From positions 1 through 42,026 of the forward strand of contig QKMY01000050.1 of NCBI GenBank assembly GCA_003242895.1: a stretch of 42,026 bases of DNA, written 5' to 3'. A program made the position numbers and the translations under genes. Of this stretch, positions 11,322 to 41,684 are shown in pieces. The stretch's first letter is position 1. Each line of letters opens with the position of its first letter. The DNA comes from Candidatus Margulisiibacteriota bacterium. Its GTDB lineage: Bacteria > Margulisbacteria > Riflemargulisbacteria > GWF2-39-127. The notes under the pieces were generated by a model. It searched no databases, had not been told where the DNA came from, and saw only the letters and a program-made list of their open reading frames with translations.

Positions 11322-11786
11322 ATGGATAAGCTTTCGATCAATATCAATTTAACTATATTAATAATACTTTGTACTGTCATAGTATGTATTATCTACGTCA
11401 CTGCCAAACTAAGGTCATTAATTCGGTCACACAAATTTTCCCGGCAGAAAATATTATCGCAAAAAGCAGAGATTGCCGGAGCACAGTTGTTACAGGATAA
11501 AGGCTTTGAAGTGGTAGAATATCAGTCTGCCAAAAATATATCTATACATGTAAACAATACTGAACATTCATACCGGATTTGCGCAGATTTCCTCGTCCAG
11601 AAAGATGAGTACCGGTTTGTTGCTGAGATTAAGAACGGTCTGCAAAATGCAGACATCAGCAATATTCAAACACGCAGGCAATTGCTAGAGTACTATCTTG
11701 CTTATGATGTTGATGGTATACTGCTCGTTGATATGCTTAACAGAAATATTAGTTTGATCCAATTTGATTTCGATGCAGATTCTTAA
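11322..11786 (+). CDS. Membrane-anchored PD-(D/E)XK nuclease-like protein
   Basis: Protein of 154 residues. One hydrophobic segment at about 8-26 is followed by basic residues, so the rest probably faces the cytoplasm. The soluble part has the layout of a PD-(D/E)XK nuclease core: an amphipathic helix with E50, a strand ending in D89 (CADFLV), a strand with E102-x-K104 (VAEIKNG), and a helix with R118, R119 and Q120 before the last strand (GILLVDM). Family and substrate are not recognised; distant kinship to Mrr, NERD or Holliday-junction-resolvase-like domains is possible. It sits between tlyA and a methyltransferase and overlaps the latter's likely start. Function in recombination or DNA quality control is only suggested by recN in the same operon. 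Confidence 0.68.
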   Translation: MDKLSININLTILIILCTVIVCIIYVTAKLRSLIRSHKFSRQKILSQKAEIAGAQLLQDKGFEVVEYQSAKNISIHVNNTEHSYRICADFLVQKDEYRFVAEIKNGLQNADISNIQTRRQLLEYYLAYDVDGILLVDMLNRNISLIQFDFDADS

Positions 11787-15947: not shown

Positions 15948-16170
15948 CCCGGATAGCCTTCTATTAATTCCCTGTGTAATCATAATGCACATCTGCTTTC
16001 TTTTCATTCAATCAACCTGTTAAGGTACTTTTTGAGTAATCATGATCACATGTTTACCAGACCTGATTTCCGGGTATACTCTGACTAACCTAATAAATAC
16101 GATTGATTATTACAATAAAATGAAAAAAAAGTTAATACCTTCACATATTAGACAAGAGATGGAGAAATCT

Positions 16171-16923
16171 ATGTCATATTGCTTGACCCCCCATTCCCGT
16201 ATCAATAACAGAGGCAAATCCGGCACCGAAGAAATGCACATACCACTTTTTGACGTTAACGGATTTGAAAGGGACTTGCCCAGGCTGTATCTTAAATCAA
16301 CTTCACTTGATGAACTGATAAACAATTTCCAGCTTTTTTATGATACCTATTTCTATCCGGCATCACTGATCAGTCTGGTCCTGATAGATGACCATAATCA
16401 ACCCGCACAGGTGTTTAATGCCAAAACTTTTACAGACCGTTCAAGGGATCTTGAAGACTGGCAGCTCGATAATCCAAGCAGTATTGCCAGCCATGCCATT
16501 TTTCATACAGACCCGGGGACCATTTATAATTTTATTGATGCCAGCAGTGAACGCGTCAATGGTTTTTTTCAAATTCCAGCTGATTTTTTCTCAAAAACCG
16601 CCTCTAGAATAGTGGATATTGGCTCAATGCTTAAAAATTGCACCGTCAGATATTCGGATATGCCGAGCATAACTGACTACAACCTGCTTCGTAAGGAAAT
16701 GTCTGAGTTTATAGACACCCAGGTTTGTTCTGCAATTATAGCTTCTCTTTGGAATGACAAAAAACTTTATGGTGGAATTCTAATAGGCACTGACATTTAC
16801 CACCTATATACCAGGCAAAAATCCGCCATATTGGGTCCAGAACACCTTATGTTCCTACAGCTGACTTTACAGCACCTTGCAATTTCTCTCGCTAACATCA
16901 AAAGTTTGAGTAGGGGAAAATAA
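16171..16923 (+). CDS. GAF-like sensory protein, partner of the downstream GGDEF gene
   Basis: Protein of 250 residues with no membrane segment or signal. From about residue 60 the pattern resembles a GAF domain: helix (FQLFYDTYFY), strand (SLISLVLIDDHNQ), a variable middle, then a late strand pair around IIASLWNDKKLYGGILIG and a closing helix (LQLTLQHLAISLANI). This is a fold-level guess. The open frame extends to an ATG at 16042, but the ATG at 16171 has GGAG six bases upstream and is preferred; the longer form of 293 residues cannot be excluded. Its stop directly abuts the start of the tandem-GGDEF gene (TAA then ATG), so both are surely one operon. It may sense a small ligand and control that partner. 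Confidence 0.55.
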   Translation: MSYCLTPHSRINNRGKSGTEEMHIPLFDVNGFERDLPRLYLKSTSLDELINNFQLFYDTYFYPASLISLVLIDDHNQPAQVFNAKTFTDRSRDLEDWQLDNPSSIASHAIFHTDPGTIYNFIDASSERVNGFFQIPADFFSKTASRIVDIGSMLKNCTVRYSDMPSITDYNLLRKEMSEFIDTQVCSAIIASLWNDKKLYGGILIGTDIYHLYTRQKSAILGPEHLMFLQLTLQHLAISLANIKSLSRGK

Positions 16924-19164
16924 ATGCAGTTAGAACAAAAAATTATAGCAACAAAAGATAACGTAAACTTTAAAATGTCTGCGGCAGTATATTTTGCAAT
17001 GGCTACCGGGCACCCTAATCAAATAATGGAACTGATGCTCCCAAAAGAATTTAGCCCGTCAAATATCAAAAACTACCAGAACTCGATTAATAACAACGAG
17101 CTGCCCTATATTGTATCCAATGCAAAGAACATAAATGTAATTGCTTTGGATATGGATTTTATGGGCAAGGCAAACCATATTGATGCAATAGGCGCTGAAA
17201 AAGTTAAATACAATATTTTGGAAGGTCTTCATAATAAATTCGGCGGGTCTATAATGTTTGCCCAGACCAGTGCCAAGTTCTACGCAATCGTCAGTCTGGA
17301 TAAACTTCCAGAGCATATCAAGGCTCAGATAACACTATCAGCCGACATTAATAAGGTTATAACACAAGGTGTTAATGAAGTTTTAGGTAACAAAACCGTA
17401 TTTAATTATTCAGATAAAGAAGGCCGTAACAAAAACATGGCTAATGAGCTTCAAATCCCATTACTTGAGCTTAATCATGCCGCGGTCAGCACACCGGAAC
17501 AAGGCAAAAATCCAATTGAATTTCTTGATAAATTGATGAAAGAAGCCAAACTTAGCCAACAGGGTGCAAAAACAGTTAACATTAAAGTCCAACCTCAAGA
17601 TATCAACTCATTCACAGAACCTTACCGTATTGACCTAAGAGTTAAACACAACATTGCTGAACATTTGGAGACGTTTAAAGAAGCACTGCAAAATGCAGAA
17701 CAAATGTTACCAACGGAATTTGAACAAAAAAAATATGAAGGGTTTACTAACGATACAAGAGAAGTTCTTCGTAATTATAACCTTTCTAAATGGACTCAGT
17801 TCAAATTCAACAACGACGAAACATTAGTTTATAACAAACAAGCAGTAATTAAGCTTTTAGACACCCTTAACGCTCTTACCCAGACTAAACTTAAAGATGC
17901 TTTAACAATGGAGCAATTAACTCCAGACCAAAAAAAAGATATCATGAATGATCTCAAAAAAGTTGATGGGACCGAACTTAGCTCAGCAGCAAAAACTGTC
18001 TTGGGCAAATATACCTATATGATCACAGCAGACGGAGCTGCCATAGGCGCACAGAATTATTCACTGGGCTGGAACAATACTGACAAATTGAATTACACCT
18101 TGGTATGCCAACAAATGAATGAAAGGCTGAAAACACTGGGATTTGAAAAAGTAATTGTTGCTGTCACCGGTGGAGATGAATTCTGCTTCCTGGGAATATC
18201 AAAAGAGATTCAATCTCCCGAAACCAGAAAAAAAATGGAGCTGGAACTAGCGAGAGTCTACGGAGAAGTACTTTCCAATATTAAATCTTCCATGATAACG
18301 GTTACAAAGGAGGATATTGTCCATTCACTACACCCAAACACCGCTATAGCAAATAAGATGTGGGAAATTAATTGCGAATATGCAAAAAAATATGCACAAA
18401 GACACAATATCCCTCTTTCAGATCTGCTCCATGACAATTCTATCACTATGAATTCCGGCGCATTCCCAATTCCATATAATAAATGCTACATAAATACCGA
18501 TGCTTTTAATAGTAATGATCATGGGAAAGAGCTGTTAGGAATTTTACAAAAATACGGTCTGGTACCGGAAAACCCCACCGGTATTTATGAATTAAAGGTT
18601 AATTTATCCAAAGAAGAAGTTCCGACGGAATTATTGGACCTATTATTAGCTACAGGTATTATTCGTGTCCGTCAAGGAGTTGACGGATCAGCGTCAGTGA
18701 ACGGGGAAAACCCAGAGGGATTTGGAACCGCACAGCGTCTAGCCGATGGCGATAATTATACCCAGATAGCCAAAGCCAGAGGACGAAGTGTTTTGCGGCA
18801 GGATATAGAAAATGCTATCGACAATAAAAAAGCCACATTAGATTATATAATCAGCACATATTTCAAGCCTACAGCAAACAGCGATATTATCCTGATCAAA
18901 GATCGCAATCATGGCAATACAATTAATAGTATTATCAATGATGATAAACTAAAAGGGATGATAACTAAAAGCCAATTAGATAAACTGGTTCAATCATTAA
19001 GGAAATCATCAAGTATTATCACCCAGCAGGAATTAAATGCATCAGAAAGCAATAACGGCAGTACTGAACATGATAAACAGGGAATGACTCCAAATAGCAT
19101 CCCGAACCTTCAAGCTATCCTCTCAAAATATCGGGACTACTTCAAACTGAGCTTCAATGGATAA
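16924..19164 (+). CDS. Soluble tandem-GGDEF protein (one degenerate, one apparently intact domain)
   Basis: Protein of 746 residues without membrane segments. The first GGDEF-like domain (about 70-150) keeps D76 and N84 at the spacing of the PleD metal and base ligands, but the signature is TSAKF (115-119) and the next Asp is K93, so it should be inactive. The second (about 360-460) has D370, N378, D387 and a full GGDEF at 416-420, matching PleD D327, N335, D344 and the active loop; diguanylate cyclase activity is plausible. No RxxD inhibitory site precedes GGDEF. The remaining ~280 residues are unrecognised. AGGGG precedes the ATG. The gene abuts the GAF-like gene and ends before a hairpin at 19275-19299. 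Confidence 0.7.
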   Translation: MQLEQKIIATKDNVNFKMSAAVYFAMATGHPNQIMELMLPKEFSPSNIKNYQNSINNNELPYIVSNAKNINVIALDMDFMGKANHIDAIGAEKVKYNILEGLHNKFGGSIMFAQTSAKFYAIVSLDKLPEHIKAQITLSADINKVITQGVNEVLGNKTVFNYSDKEGRNKNMANELQIPLLELNHAAVSTPEQGKNPIEFLDKLMKEAKLSQQGAKTVNIKVQPQDINSFTEPYRIDLRVKHNIAEHLETFKEALQNAEQMLPTEFEQKKYEGFTNDTREVLRNYNLSKWTQFKFNNDETLVYNKQAVIKLLDTLNALTQTKLKDALTMEQLTPDQKKDIMNDLKKVDGTELSSAAKTVLGKYTYMITADGAAIGAQNYSLGWNNTDKLNYTLVCQQMNERLKTLGFEKVIVAVTGGDEFCFLGISKEIQSPETRKKMELELARVYGEVLSNIKSSMITVTKEDIVHSLHPNTAIANKMWEINCEYAKKYAQRHNIPLSDLLHDNSITMNSGAFPIPYNKCYINTDAFNSNDHGKELLGILQKYGLVPENPTGIYELKVNLSKEEVPTELLDLLLATGIIRVRQGVDGSASVNGENPEGFGTAQRLADGDNYTQIAKARGRSVLRQDIENAIDNKKATLDYIISTYFKPTANSDIILIKDRNHGNTINSIINDDKLKGMITKSQLDKLVQSLRKSSSIITQQELNASESNNGSTEHDKQGMTPNSIPNLQAILSKYRDYFKLSFNG

Positions 19165-19274: not shown

Positions 19275-19299
19275 ACCTCAGCCATGATTGGGCTGAGGT
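19275..19299 (+). terminator. Hairpin between the GGDEF gene and tRNA-Glu, possibly bidirectional
   Basis: ACCTCAGCC (19275-19283) and its exact complement GGCTGAGGT (19291-19299) form a 9-bp stem with a 7-base loop between converging transcripts. Neither side has a full T tract (CGTTTCT on the plus side), so it is a likely but imperfect terminator. Confidence 0.45.
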
Positions 19300-19336: not shown

Positions 19337-19411
19337 TGGTACTCCCACGGGGAATCGAACCCCGATTACCGGCTTGAAAAGCCGATGTCCTAACCGTTAG
19401 ACGATGGGAGC
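19337..19411 (-). tRNA. tRNA-Glu (anticodon UUC)
   Basis: A complete 75-base cloverleaf reads on the minus strand. Acceptor GCTCCCA pairs with TGGGAGT (a G1-U72 wobble at the end); D arm GTCT/GGAC; anticodon stem TCGGC/GCCGG with loop TTTTCAA, anticodon UUC; T arm CGGGG-TTCGATT-CCCCG; discriminator A; and an encoded CCA at 19339-19337. Confidence 0.97.
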
Positions 19412-29146: not shown

Positions 29147-30361
29147 TTATTTCTTTCTGATTATTAATTTGGAGGTTGTTTGACTTATATTTTTATTTTT
29201 CTCTTGAGCTCTAGCATAAAGGATATTGTTTCCATTATCAAGAGGTATTTGAGCTTCCCATTTTCCAAAATCATCGGCACTAACGCGATCAACCAGAACT
29301 TCATTCCGGTATATTGAAATAGTAGCGTTGTCCTGTGCTCTGCCGGATAAAGTATAAAAGGGTTCATCGGTTATAATATAAGGCTTGTTTGTGTCCAAGG
29401 TAGGTCTGAATGATTCGCCGCCATGGTAAAAAGAAACTGAAAAATAATGATTATAAGCCGCACCGGGTAACGCAGATAAGTCATCATTATACTCAAAGGC
29501 ATAATCCAACACTACATTGTCAAAATCAAAGCCGCTCAGCTTGTCAAAGTTGATACCCATACCAAGCATATACGACTTATCTGCAATTCCTGCCTTAAGC
29601 AGATATTTATCAATAAATGTATAGCTTGTGCCAAAATAGTTTTTATCCTTTTCAAAATCGCCAAAAATTTTCCATGAAGGAGCAATGCTATACGAAGCGC
29701 CAAACCTGTAACGCGATTCAACAACCTCTTCCTCGTTACTTCCGGTCCATTTTAATTTGGATTTGATGATATTAAAACCTACCAATCCGACATCAAGATC
29801 ATCGAATACAAAACGAGGAATAATGAGTCCCCCATTTACTCCATACCCAAAACGTTGATTGCCATCTACAAACTGATTAATTACTTTTAATCCGGCTCCC
29901 AAATAGACCCTTCTTAATATAGTTTCATTGAGCGCAGTTGCCAGACTAATCATAAAAGATCGTTCGCCACTGCTAAAACTAGTTCCAGTCTTGAATATTC
30001 TATTTTCTTCAGCAGAAAAATCAGTTTCAGGAATACCATCCATTGAATAACCGGAATATCCTAAGCCGATAACAAAATTATTATATGGAATTGTCCCTCC
30101 CAATACGTAATACTGATAATTAGAGAGATAGTTCGAATACATCGTCGTTAACTCTAGGCCCTTAATACTTCCAATAGCTGCAGGATTAGCATAGATGCCA
30201 AATATATCTCCGATATCTGAGGTATAGGTCTTCCCCTTTGCAATATTAGATGCCCCTATAATAATCTTGTTTACATCCGGCAATTCTTCTCGCGGACAGG
30301 CCACTACATTGTTCATACTCAAAACACAAATAACGATTAATAAAGAAGTTAACTTTTTCAC
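29147..30361 (-). CDS. PorV/UPF0164-like outer-membrane beta-barrel with Ig-like C-terminal domain
   Basis: Protein of 404 residues. A signal peptide (about 1-21, ending near VVAC) is followed by a region typical of PorV/UPF0164 barrels: IFGIYANPAAIG, then alternating strands of a roughly 14-strand FadL-like barrel to about residue 320. The last 80 residues (TNKPYIITDE onward) form a compact Ig-like beta-sandwich with GKWEAQIPLDNGNN, resembling bacterial Ig repeats. PorV is the shuttle of type IX secretion in Bacteroidetes, but UPF0164 members occur where no such system is known. GTG start with AAGGTGA upstream; 13 bases after the giant surface protein gene, with which it must be co-expressed. 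Confidence 0.75.
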   Translation of the reverse strand: MKKLTSLLIVICVLSMNNVVACPREELPDVNKIIIGASNIAKGKTYTSDIGDIFGIYANPAAIGSIKGLELTTMYSNYLSNYQYYVLGGTIPYNNFVIGLGYSGYSMDGIPETDFSAEENRIFKTGTSFSSGERSFMISLATALNETILRRVYLGAGLKVINQFVDGNQRFGYGVNGGLIIPRFVFDDLDVGLVGFNIIKSKLKWTGSNEEEVVESRYRFGASYSIAPSWKIFGDFEKDKNYFGTSYTFIDKYLLKAGIADKSYMLGMGINFDKLSGFDFDNVVLDYAFEYNDDLSALPGAAYNHYFSVSFYHGGESFRPTLDTNKPYIITDEPFYTLSGRAQDNATISIYRNEVLVDRVSADDFGKWEAQIPLDNGNNILYARAQEKNKNISQTTSKLIIRKK

Positions 30362-30374
30362 TCAATATCACCTT

Positions 30375-33300
30375 TTACCATACTGCCAATTTCGTCTTTA
30401 TCTTGGATTTTATATCTGAACCATTTTCAGCAATTGCATATAAAAGATAAGCACCGGAAGGAATTGAACGATTTGCGCCAACTAATCCATCGTAATCAAT
30501 AATATTATATCCATAATTAAGGTTATTAACAGTTTTTTCCCAGATGACACCGCCAACTGCATTAACTATATAGAACGTCACATTTGCAGGTGAAAGAAGC
30601 GTAAAGCCTATCTTCAATTTAGTTCCGGCCCCAGAATGATAAGGATTCGGGTATACAAGCAAATTACTTATTTTTGGATCAGCATTAGAACCATTACTCA
30701 CAAGAAAGCTAAAATTAAAATCATCTAACTGATTACCGGCGGTATCTTTAACTTTTAGCTGCAGTATCCCATCCTTATTCCCGATAGTAGAAATAGTTAA
30801 GATCCCTGTTGTTTCAGAATATAAAAAATAATTCGTACTGGTCGTATCGTGATTTAGTTCTTCACCATTCAGGATAACTTTAATCAAATTCCCATTAATA
30901 GCTTTACCATTATCATTAAATTCTATCTGTAACGAAGAATCATGAAATAAGACTGATTTATCAAAGACTTGAGTGAGAACACCATTAACCAGGCTTTTTA
31001 TGATTTTAATATAGGCAGGATACGCATAATGTATATCTAGCGGTACCGTAGTATTCCAATGAAAAGCAGTATTTGATGCGGCAGTTAAGGCCCCAACATT
31101 ATCTTTGTGTCTAGTTATTGTGGAATTAAGCGTTATTACACTGGAGTAATATTTGCAGAAGGCATCGATGATTACATTTCCAGCGGTACGTATTTTAGTA
31201 GTGCTTATCTGGAACGATACGGTAGTCGAACTACCGGCATTCAAACTTAAAGGAGCAAATGTGGGAGAGGCCGCATACTCGTAAGAAATATCCTGTCCGG
31301 AAATGCTATCCTTATAAAAAACCGGACCAGCCTCATTTATTGTAACAGAAAAAGTGTTATTGTTTTCGATACCGATATTCACATAGTAACTGTGAGAGTT
31401 ATCAATAACATTTGCAGAAGAATAGACATTTGTAATCTTAACTTTATTATCGATAACGGCAAGTTGAATCGGGCTCTGCGGCCGCGGAAAAATCCCTGAT
31501 GGAAGAACAAAGCTACTTCCGCTTGAAACAACACTATCTACTTGAAAGTTCATATTTGACTGAGAATCACTCCCAAGCCCAACCACGACAAAATAACGGG
31601 TAGGAATATTAGCTTTTAGATTAACACTCGGCAGATTAGTTTTTAGCGTGCTATCGAACTTAATTATCGAGCCTTCCAAAATATCATTTGCATCAAGGAC
31701 ATTGTTGCCATTATCCCGATATAATTTGATGTAAGTAATCCCTTTATTATTATCATAAAAAGCATTCTGATTACTTAACAACTTAACTGCGACATTATTT
31801 AAATCTGATTTGCTTTCCAAAGTATACGCAATTAACGGTACTGAATCAGACAATTCAAAAACTTTAGCCGGTGCTATTGATTCAATCTCACTGATAGCTA
31901 TATTGGTATACTTAACAGGGATAGAAATATTATAGGTATCTTGTTCTCCGCTTAAAAAAACATCCTGGTTTATATAATTCGTTGTTGCCCTCGCATCCTT
32001 GATATTAGCAGCCACATCGGAAGACGATGACGGAGCAACAGAAATATCATCACCTAATGAATAAACAAGAAAAAACCGTTCCTGCTTTTCTAATTCATCA
32101 TCACCATTTGTAGAAGAATAATTTGTTGTCGGGATAAAAAGGTTAAGTCCGGTAACATTAACTCTGTTTGGTAAATTAGATTCACCGTGAACATTCTTTG
32201 TCCCTAATTCCCATGCCGTTATCAATTCTTCATTATTTGGACCATTGAAGAAATAATCTCTATCTGTATCTCTATAGAGACTGACAAGGGTTACACCGTT
32301 TTTTTGATTTTTTTCTGTGACATAAGGAATACTACCTGAATTTGCAAAGGTTAACTCACTCAATGCCAAAGATATTTCCTGGCCGGAAAGACTAAATCTT
32401 GCAACCGGAAAATCATTATCTCCAGCCCCGATATTTCCTGGGGAAAGGATTGAGACAAATTCATCCAATCGCAGACCACCGAGCTTTGCGGCATACCGAC
32501 TATCATCAGGCTGTACAGGTAGCTGCCCGATCATGCTGACATCGAGTCCACTGGCAACTCCAAGGACTGACAGTGATTTGATTTGAAAAAAAATCTTTTT
32601 CCCGTCACCGATACTCGTCTTATTGCCTATATCATAAACAACAAAAAAATTCCGGGTTACACCTTTATCCAGTGTCCCAAAAAGCCCAGTGATTTCAATT
32701 GTTGAAGCATTATTAATAATATTGCCATTATCGCCACTTTCTGTACCCGCGATCGGTATATACGCGTCTCCATTACTTTCGTCAGCCTCAAAAACCCCTA
32801 TATTAGGACCATTGTCTTCGTAAAAATAGATTTTATTTATACCGTCATTAGTCTTATCTTTATCAAAGTTATTTCCATCATTATAGATTTTAAGCTTAAA
32901 ATCTCCGGTAAAACTCTCACCTCTCGGTTTAATGCTCAGATATGCATAAGGCACCTTCGATTGATTAGGAATTACGATCTTGGGCGTATATGATTTATCA
33001 AGCGCCACTTCAATGCCGGATATAGCAAATTGTTTCTCCGGAGGATTGCCGATATTAACGGTATTTCCCTGAGAATCCTGAATAGCTGTTAATTTAAAAT
33101 TGGCAGTTGACTCTAGTGTGGCATTATTAGCGACAGTATAATAAAAATAAAAAGTCTTTTTATCACCTACTTCAACAAAGGCTATATCTCCAAAAGAAGT
33201 GAAGGTACAGCTATTGGCAGGATTAGCATCAAAAGACGTAGAACTAAGAGGCGTGAGGGCTCCGTTATCAACCTGATACTCTAGCTCTACCTTTGAAATT

Positions 33301-33539
33301 CCAGACGAACTAAAAGCAACAGAGCCATTATTTGTAATTGTAATTGAAGATATTTTAGCATCCTCAAGCGTCCCTTCCAGTGTAAACGTATAAACCAATG
33401 CCTTTTGATAGCCTCGGGGAAGCGCATTACTTGCTGTTGCAAAGCCACTAAAATTAGCGCTGACAGTATCAGCGTTTACAGAGAAATGCGCGAATGTAAA
33501 AAATACAAATAATAATGAAAATAATTTGATATAACGCAT
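30375..33539 (-). CDS. Large exported repeat protein with FlgD-like C-terminal domain
   Basis: Protein of 1054 residues. Signal peptide 1-23 (ends VNADT). The main part contains at least four diverged beta-rich repeats, each with an aromatic-rich strand: KTFYFYYTVANN at 128, RNFFVVYDIGNK at 296, RFFLVYSLGDD at 488 and RYFVVVGLGSD at 648. Between them are Asp/Asn-rich loops (FYEDNGPN, LYRDTDRD, LYRDNGNNVLDANDI) that could bind calcium. The last 96 residues (959-1054, VYPNPYHSGAG, then IIDYDG, PSGAYLLY) are a FlgD Ig-like/T9SS-sorting-like domain. It is probably a surface or secreted adhesin or stalk protein; the partner gene codes the PorV-like barrel. No enzyme motif was seen. Confidence 0.75.
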   Translation of the reverse strand: MRYIKLFSLLFVFFTFAHFSVNADTVSANFSGFATASNALPRGYQKALVYTFTLEGTLEDAKISSITITNNGSVAFSSSGISKVELEYQVDNGALTPLSSTSFDANPANSCTFTSFGDIAFVEVGDKKTFYFYYTVANNATLESTANFKLTAIQDSQGNTVNIGNPPEKQFAISGIEVALDKSYTPKIVIPNQSKVPYAYLSIKPRGESFTGDFKLKIYNDGNNFDKDKTNDGINKIYFYEDNGPNIGVFEADESNGDAYIPIAGTESGDNGNIINNASTIEITGLFGTLDKGVTRNFFVVYDIGNKTSIGDGKKIFFQIKSLSVLGVASGLDVSMIGQLPVQPDDSRYAAKLGGLRLDEFVSILSPGNIGAGDNDFPVARFSLSGQEISLALSELTFANSGSIPYVTEKNQKNGVTLVSLYRDTDRDYFFNGPNNEELITAWELGTKNVHGESNLPNRVNVTGLNLFIPTTNYSSTNGDDELEKQERFFLVYSLGDDISVAPSSSSDVAANIKDARATTNYINQDVFLSGEQDTYNISIPVKYTNIAISEIESIAPAKVFELSDSVPLIAYTLESKSDLNNVAVKLLSNQNAFYDNNKGITYIKLYRDNGNNVLDANDILEGSIIKFDSTLKTNLPSVNLKANIPTRYFVVVGLGSDSQSNMNFQVDSVVSSGSSFVLPSGIFPRPQSPIQLAVIDNKVKITNVYSSANVIDNSHSYYVNIGIENNNTFSVTINEAGPVFYKDSISGQDISYEYAASPTFAPLSLNAGSSTTVSFQISTTKIRTAGNVIIDAFCKYYSSVITLNSTITRHKDNVGALTAASNTAFHWNTTVPLDIHYAYPAYIKIIKSLVNGVLTQVFDKSVLFHDSSLQIEFNDNGKAINGNLIKVILNGEELNHDTTSTNYFLYSETTGILTISTIGNKDGILQLKVKDTAGNQLDDFNFSFLVSNGSNADPKISNLLVYPNPYHSGAGTKLKIGFTLLSPANVTFYIVNAVGGVIWEKTVNNLNYGYNIIDYDGLVGANRSIPSGAYLLYAIAENGSDIKSKIKTKLAVW

Positions 33540-40730: not shown

Positions 40731-41684
40731 TCAGTCTCGCTCCCTTTTGACTTCATTGAACATATCATCTACTTGTTTAAGCAGATGATTAAACAATTCC
40801 GTTTTTTTCTCATTCGTCCAGGTAAGCGAAGCCCCTAACTTCAACGCCATTTTAAAATAACTGATATCCAGCTGAGCAGCAACGGATTTCATCGTTGACT
40901 CATCAGCCCAGCCCTTTGCCTTAACATCTGATAAAGTTTTATCCAATTCAGCAAATTTATCATCTGGCAGCCCTTTTAATGCTTTTTTGAAGCCTTGCAA
41001 TTCTGAATCACTGAATTCCTTATCTTTTATATCGGCATCATTGGTGCCGGGAGGTACAGGATCAACGACAGAAGGCGCTTCTTTTTTCTTATCGTCTGTT
41101 CTAGCTGGTGATTGTGAAAAAAAGTTAACTATGGACCCTATAACACCATCACCCCACGAAATAGCTTTACGTACAAAGTCAGTTACAGGCTTCAATGTGC
41201 TTGCCAGAGTACCTAGAACTGGAGCAACTTTCGATTTTATCTGACCCCAAAGTTTATCAAGGGCCGGTTTGACAACCGGGCTGTTAAGAATGAAAGTGAA
41301 AGGTAAAAACATGGCTCGGAGAGCACCTTTTATATACGATGGTTTTGTTGTTTCTTCAGGCTTTTTGGGTTTAGGTTCAGAGGTTGTAATTTGCACTTTA
41401 ATAGAAGCCGTTTCGTTAATTATAGCCGAGGAGGCATTTTCAGCTTTTGCACAAAATTCATCGACATCCACTGCGGAAATATTAAATGGCCTCCGGTAAT
41501 AATCCAACATAGACACAATATCCTGCTTATTTATCTGACAAGGGACATTCGCAGTGTCTTTCTTTTCGGATTTTGCTGATACATTTTTCTCAATTTCATC
41601 ACCTTGTCCGGCTGCTTTGCAATTATAAAGCAACATATTCTTACAAGAGTTATAAGCTCCGCTAATTGTACTCAGGATAAACAC
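40731..41684 (-). CDS. Unknown protein with hydrophobic central region
   Basis: Protein of up to 317 residues that I do not recognise. A Cys-containing N terminus (about 1-60) lacks a clear signal peptide. A Lys/Pro/Glu-rich linker (SEPKPKKPEETTKPS) precedes a hydrophobic, helix-rich section with FLPFTFILNSPVV and several Lys-spaced amphipathic helices to about residue 190. A second charged linker is followed by a helical C-terminal domain (about 215-317). It might associate with membranes. The start is uncertain: the GTG at 41684 has AGGGG directly against it, too close to be ideal, and the next Met is residue 17 without a ribosome-binding site. It converges on rsmA, 47 bases away. Confidence 0.6.
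   Translation of the reverse strand: MFILSTISGAYNSCKNMLLYNCKAAGQGDEIEKNVSAKSEKKDTANVPCQINKQDIVSMLDYYRRPFNISAVDVDEFCAKAENASSAIINETASIKVQITTSEPKPKKPEETTKPSYIKGALRAMFLPFTFILNSPVVKPALDKLWGQIKSKVAPVLGTLASTLKPVTDFVRKAISWGDGVIGSIVNFFSQSPARTDDKKKEAPSVVDPVPPGTNDADIKDKEFSDSELQGFKKALKGLPDDKFAELDKTLSDVKAKGWADESTMKSVAAQLDISYFKMALKLGASLTWTNEKKTELFNHLLKQVDDMFNEVKRERD

Follow-up and report, generated by a model that had tools for sequence, protein, structure and literature searches.

The window (the whole stretch of DNA analysed, 42,026 nucleotides) exhibits two adjoining ORFs, here called P1 and P2. We consider it likely that P2 carries one genuine, very diverged GGDEF domain, because it combines the GGDEF catalytic motif, the expected residue spacing, an hhalign profile match above all controls and weak NCBIfam matches to c-di-GMP enzymes. 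We further propose, with about even confidence, that P2 acts in the cytosol as a much diverged GGDEF diguanylate cyclase, which an insert, its N-terminal part and P1 would regulate. The gene pair and the hairpin that follows it are:

16171..16923, plus strand: P1, 250 aa, soluble, family not recognised
16924..19164, plus strand: P2, 746 aa, soluble orphan with a diverged GGDEF domain
19275..19299, plus strand: terminator-like hairpin after P2

The gene pair, its genome and the search for relatives

Both ORFs (16042/16171-16923 and 16924-19164) lie on the plus strand, with an APH-type kinase gene on one side and, on the other, a gene for tRNA-Glu (19337-19411, minus strand). The genes abut as originally predicted, the TAA of P1 (16921-16923) being directly followed by the ATG of P2 (16924), and each is preceded by its own ribosome-binding site. 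The P1 ORF is open already from an ATG at 16042; the start at 16171 adopted in the original prediction has the better ribosome site and is reasonable, since a GGAG lies 7 nt upstream. An AGGGGA is found upstream of the P2 start. The predicted lack of a membrane segment also holds, with no 19-residue Kyte-Doolittle window above 1.15 in P1 or P2. The GC content and codon use of the pair are ordinary for the neighbouring genes of the window, which speaks against a horizontal acquisition; the absence of a PADLOC match argues against an anti-phage (CBASS/CRISPR-type) cyclase. Other proteins of the window also lack a Pfam match: a 1054-aa and a 404-aa protein (30375-33539 and 29147-30361, minus strand) adjoining radical-SAM and DUF2344 genes, a 317-aa protein (40731-41684, minus strand) and a 154-aa protein (11322-11786, plus strand).

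The window corresponds to a whole contig (C50) of the assembly, which is 3.35 Mb in size and 100% complete. No other genome of its family was among those searched. At 3.35 Mb it is larger than any listed genome from the same class and phylum, which span 0.8-2.8 Mb, and thus may be rich in lineage-specific genes.

P1 had zero matches in Pfam, NCBIfam, PHROGs and PADLOC. P2 had none above cut-off in the same four libraries and no similar sequence in the PDB. The Pfam GGDEF model (PF00990), for which P2 is below the family cut-off, misses it even at an E-value of 10, and detects a single protein in the whole genome, L004 on contig C4. No relative of P1 or P2 was detected among 95 genomes, and none of the catalytic part of P2 among 383 genomes. 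No homologue of P2 was detected in GTDB contigs, viral contigs, phages and plasmids, nor one of P1 in GTDB contigs, and the genome itself holds no paralogue of P2. With no library family and no homologue in the collections searched, P2 is an orphan protein. Four of the best weak matches from these searches were rejected as due to chance: L003 sits within a DNA polymerase IV gene, L069 within an electron-transfer flavoprotein alpha subunit, and L070 and L071 within unrelated GC-rich and phage-like stretches. L072 is a further weak match (E-value = 0.037). Matches of DUF1840 and MCM_C to the P2 C-terminus are under their cut-offs.

The probable GGDEF domain of P2

The segment assigned to the core of the domain contains the following features:

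18007..18276, plus strand: GGDEF domain core, residues 362-451, with predicted metal ligand D370 and guanine contacts N378 and D387
18169..18183, plus strand: GGDEF motif, residues 416-420, with predicted metal ligands D418/E419

D370, N378, D387 and the GGDEF string at 416-420 are found exactly where the original prediction had placed them. P2 thereby shares with canonical GGDEF cyclases (PF00990; DgcR, PleD) the arrangement D-x7-N-x8-D...GGDEF at canonical spacing; the gap between D387 and the GG pair is 29 residues, real domains having 23-30. A string of the form GG[DE]E[FLIMVY] by itself occurs in 0.5% of shuffled P2 sequences, and the full motif D-x7-N-x8-D-(18-36)-GG[DE]EF in none of 200,000. 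In DgcR, N182 and D191 contact the guanine, D174, E217 and E218 bind the metals, K289 and R293 hold the gamma-phosphate, and K179 is positioned above the alpha-phosphate (PMC8041772). The DgcR spacings map onto D370, N378, D387, D418 and E419 of P2.

A profile search had been suggested as a check on the domain. We built a profile from 29 GGDEF domains belonging to this phylum, and hhalign places its best match in P2 (score 28.9) at the GGDEF string, on residues 366-423 against profile columns 37-87, which begin with the metal-aspartate strand and extend as far as the GGDEF hairpin. Across 250 shuffled P2 sequences the score never exceeded 24.1, and for the fragment 340-640 no shuffle out of 150 does as well. 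When 96 natural ORFs are ranked by this score, P2 follows directly after three true GGDEF proteins (about 300); the best of about 90 unrelated ORFs, HisA, remains below it at 24.8. The second GGDEF domain, described from the start as apparently intact, is thus supported both by motif spacing and by a match exceeding shuffled and natural controls. In HMMER, the local profile reaches no more than about 5 bits on residues 340-470, a value equalled by 13-18 of 3000 shuffles. The GGDEF segment further exhibits weak matches to two NCBIfam models of c-di-GMP phosphodiesterases, GepA (E-value = 0.0029) and DibA (E-value = 0.063); in our reading both represent GGDEF-EAL proteins, and the matches fall in their GGDEF portion.

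The lack of any library match, the modest profile scores and the frequency of the short string by itself would be in keeping with a coincidental GGDEF string within an unrelated fold. Yet no control equals P2 in either the combined motif or the profile score, and an AlphaFold2 model computed without alignment (pLDDT 36.2, low confidence) puts the motif in a predicted strand-turn-strand. We therefore regard coincidence as improbable and favour a genuine GGDEF domain.

Two further parts of the domain are proposed beyond the hairpin, and a third feature ahead of the core:

18277..18654, plus strand: unmatched excess of about 127 residues, residues 452-577, from the helix after the GGDEF hairpin to the C-terminal strand-helix
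18655..18792, plus strand: residues 578-623, proposed to complete the GGDEF domain at its C-terminal side, with strand IIRVRQGV and D610..K617..G620 R621
17896..17907, plus strand: possible DxLT motif, D325-A-L-T328, 45 residues before D370

The domain probably continues past the hairpin. A strand-like IIRVRQGV (579-586) stands where the last GGDEF strand belongs. It is followed by K617 and R621, four residues apart like K289 and R293 of DgcR and like the K/R pair near the end of canonical cyclases generally, with D610 seven residues before the lysine. This C-terminal match was found by eye and after the fact, and its profile score is about 0 bits; the motif D-x6-K-x2-G-[RK] arises in 1% of shuffled P2 tails. 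If D610, K617 and R621 represent the C-terminal phosphate-binding helix, the domain contains an insert of about 127 residues: E419 and K617 are 198 residues apart, as against 65-94 in 15 ordinary domains and 71 in DgcR. The final 280 or so residues, originally described as unrecognised, indeed match no family above cut-off, but much of this stretch is probably the insert together with the end of the GGDEF domain.

P2 departs from DgcR and PleD in several respects: it is below Pfam detection, has no recognised input domain and would carry the intradomain insert of about 127 residues. It also lacks the active-site "FK" lysine, the position of DgcR K179 being occupied by G375. Its possible DxLT motif precedes D370 by 45 residues, about ten too many, ordinary domains having 35-37 here; such a motif has a 2% chance of arising at random. 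An I-site is missing as well; in line with the original prediction of no RxxD inhibitory site by the GGDEF motif, the only RxxD of P2 is at 605-608. Its solubility is shared with the Rec-GGDEF enzymes.

The main rival to an active cyclase is a catalytically dead GGDEF fold serving as a GTP-sensing switch or scaffold through D370, N378 and D387. P2 would be dead because the FK lysine is lost, with G375 in its place, and because the domain is interrupted by the large insert; its remoteness from all known GGDEF domains points the same way. However, all metal, guanine and gamma-phosphate contacts appear to be kept, which is unusual in a dead copy, and we hold this alternative to be unlikely.

The N-terminal part of P2 and its partner P1

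17119..17589, plus strand: residues 66-222, a possible first GGDEF-like domain of degenerate type, with D76, N84, E92 and TSAKF 115-119

TSAKF is present at 115-119, 301 residues ahead of GGDEF, as initially described. Residues 66-125 look like the beginning of a GGDEF domain, with D76, N84, E92 and TSAKF as a hairpin-like element, and the second-best hhalign site in P2 (59-85) falls at the start of this proposed domain. For the first-domain fragment, 8 of 150 shuffles score equally well, and a search for an RxxD I-site in residues 66-222 found none. The original assignment of a degenerate first GGDEF domain thus does not rise above shuffled sequences, and we retain the label as a plausible guess. 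PopA and SgmT, degenerate GGDEF receptors, bind c-di-GMP via an intact RxxD I-site (PMC3509222). The possible first domain of P2 likewise lacks the active-site acids, but has no such site.

The description of P1 as GAF-like fared similarly. Beside the absence of a library match, 23 of 150 shuffles do as well as P1 against a GAF_2 profile made from 30 domains. Its two best GAF_2 pieces are collinear with the start and end of GAF, and P1 would form a pair of beta hairpins and a helix at its C-terminus, which is compatible with a putative GAF-type sensor. Its AlphaFold2 model computed without alignment has a pLDDT of 36.6. The GAF-like label is a plausible guess.

Predicted catalysis and c-di-GMP setting

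As an active cyclase, each of two P2 molecules would bind one GTP in the domain spanning 362-623, with D370, D418 and E419 holding magnesium, N378 and D387 reading the guanine, and K617 and R621 holding the gamma-phosphate. Synthesis of c-di-GMP requires two GTP-loaded GGDEF domains to meet (PMC7825114). A head-to-head encounter of two loaded P2 domains would accordingly yield c-di-GMP, the insert, the N-terminal part and P1 setting when the catalytic domains can meet. Such a homodimer would act without product inhibition at an I-site.

The Hypr GGDEF enzymes (GacA) share with P2 the GGDEF motif and the D at its third place. In Hypr enzymes a Ser/Thr replaces the guanine-reading Asp, whereas an Asp there confers specificity for GTP and can occur together with a GGDEF motif (PMC6456294). 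P2 has Asp387 where Hypr enzymes have Ser/Thr. Use of GTP, rather than of mixed GTP/ATP, is therefore predicted.

The absence of EAL, HD-GYP and PilZ genes from the window, noted originally, is borne out among the window proteins scanned. The genome has no PilZ, no EAL above cut-off and no c-di-GMP-I riboswitch. Two response regulators match HD_5, but a reading of their sequences shows that the HD residues are missing. On contig C53, the near-duplicate HD_5 (HD-GYP-like) response regulators L036 (1078-2220) and L037 (1081-2226) enclose a related REC-HDOD-like gene, and a sigma-54-type regulator and a PAS kinase adjoin. L004 (contig C4, 601-2187) is the sole ordinary GGDEF protein of the genome: 528 aa with a GGEEI motif and the I-site RKTD. 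Its GGDEF-type domain follows, as in P2, a long N-terminal region without Pfam match (about 300 residues in L004). It differs from P2 in its strong Pfam match (E-value = 2.7e-23) and in the lack of a large insert in the matched part. The genome also encodes three MshEN domains, a family of which some members bind c-di-GMP. The ordinary GGDEF protein and the MshEN domains make c-di-GMP production in the source organism possible; a removal route is not evident.

This setting bears on whether P2 makes another product (cGAMP, or a linear or larger oligonucleotide) for a private pathway. The genome without EAL above cut-off, PilZ or c-di-GMP-I riboswitch, its degenerate HD-GYP-type regulators and the unusual active site of P2 would fit such a product. 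On the other side, Asp387 predicts GTP specificity (PMC6456294), and the genome does hold an ordinary GGDEF protein with the I-site RKTD and three MshEN domains. We consider another product very improbable and retain c-di-GMP as the predicted product of P2. A bolder proposal would make P1-P2 a self-contained signalling pair and P2 a new GGDEF branch, its catalytic domain split by a regulatory insert of about 127 residues and perhaps forming another product, in a lineage almost without recognised c-di-GMP turnover genes; taken as a whole, we find it rather improbable.

Were P2 inactive, it would add another orphan to the proteins of a lineage that has received little study. If it is active, there are GGDEF enzymes far too diverged for the profiles with which c-di-GMP genes are counted, and the GGDEF catalytic domain can accommodate a large insertion. 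Counts for genomes that seem poor in c-di-GMP signalling may then be too low.
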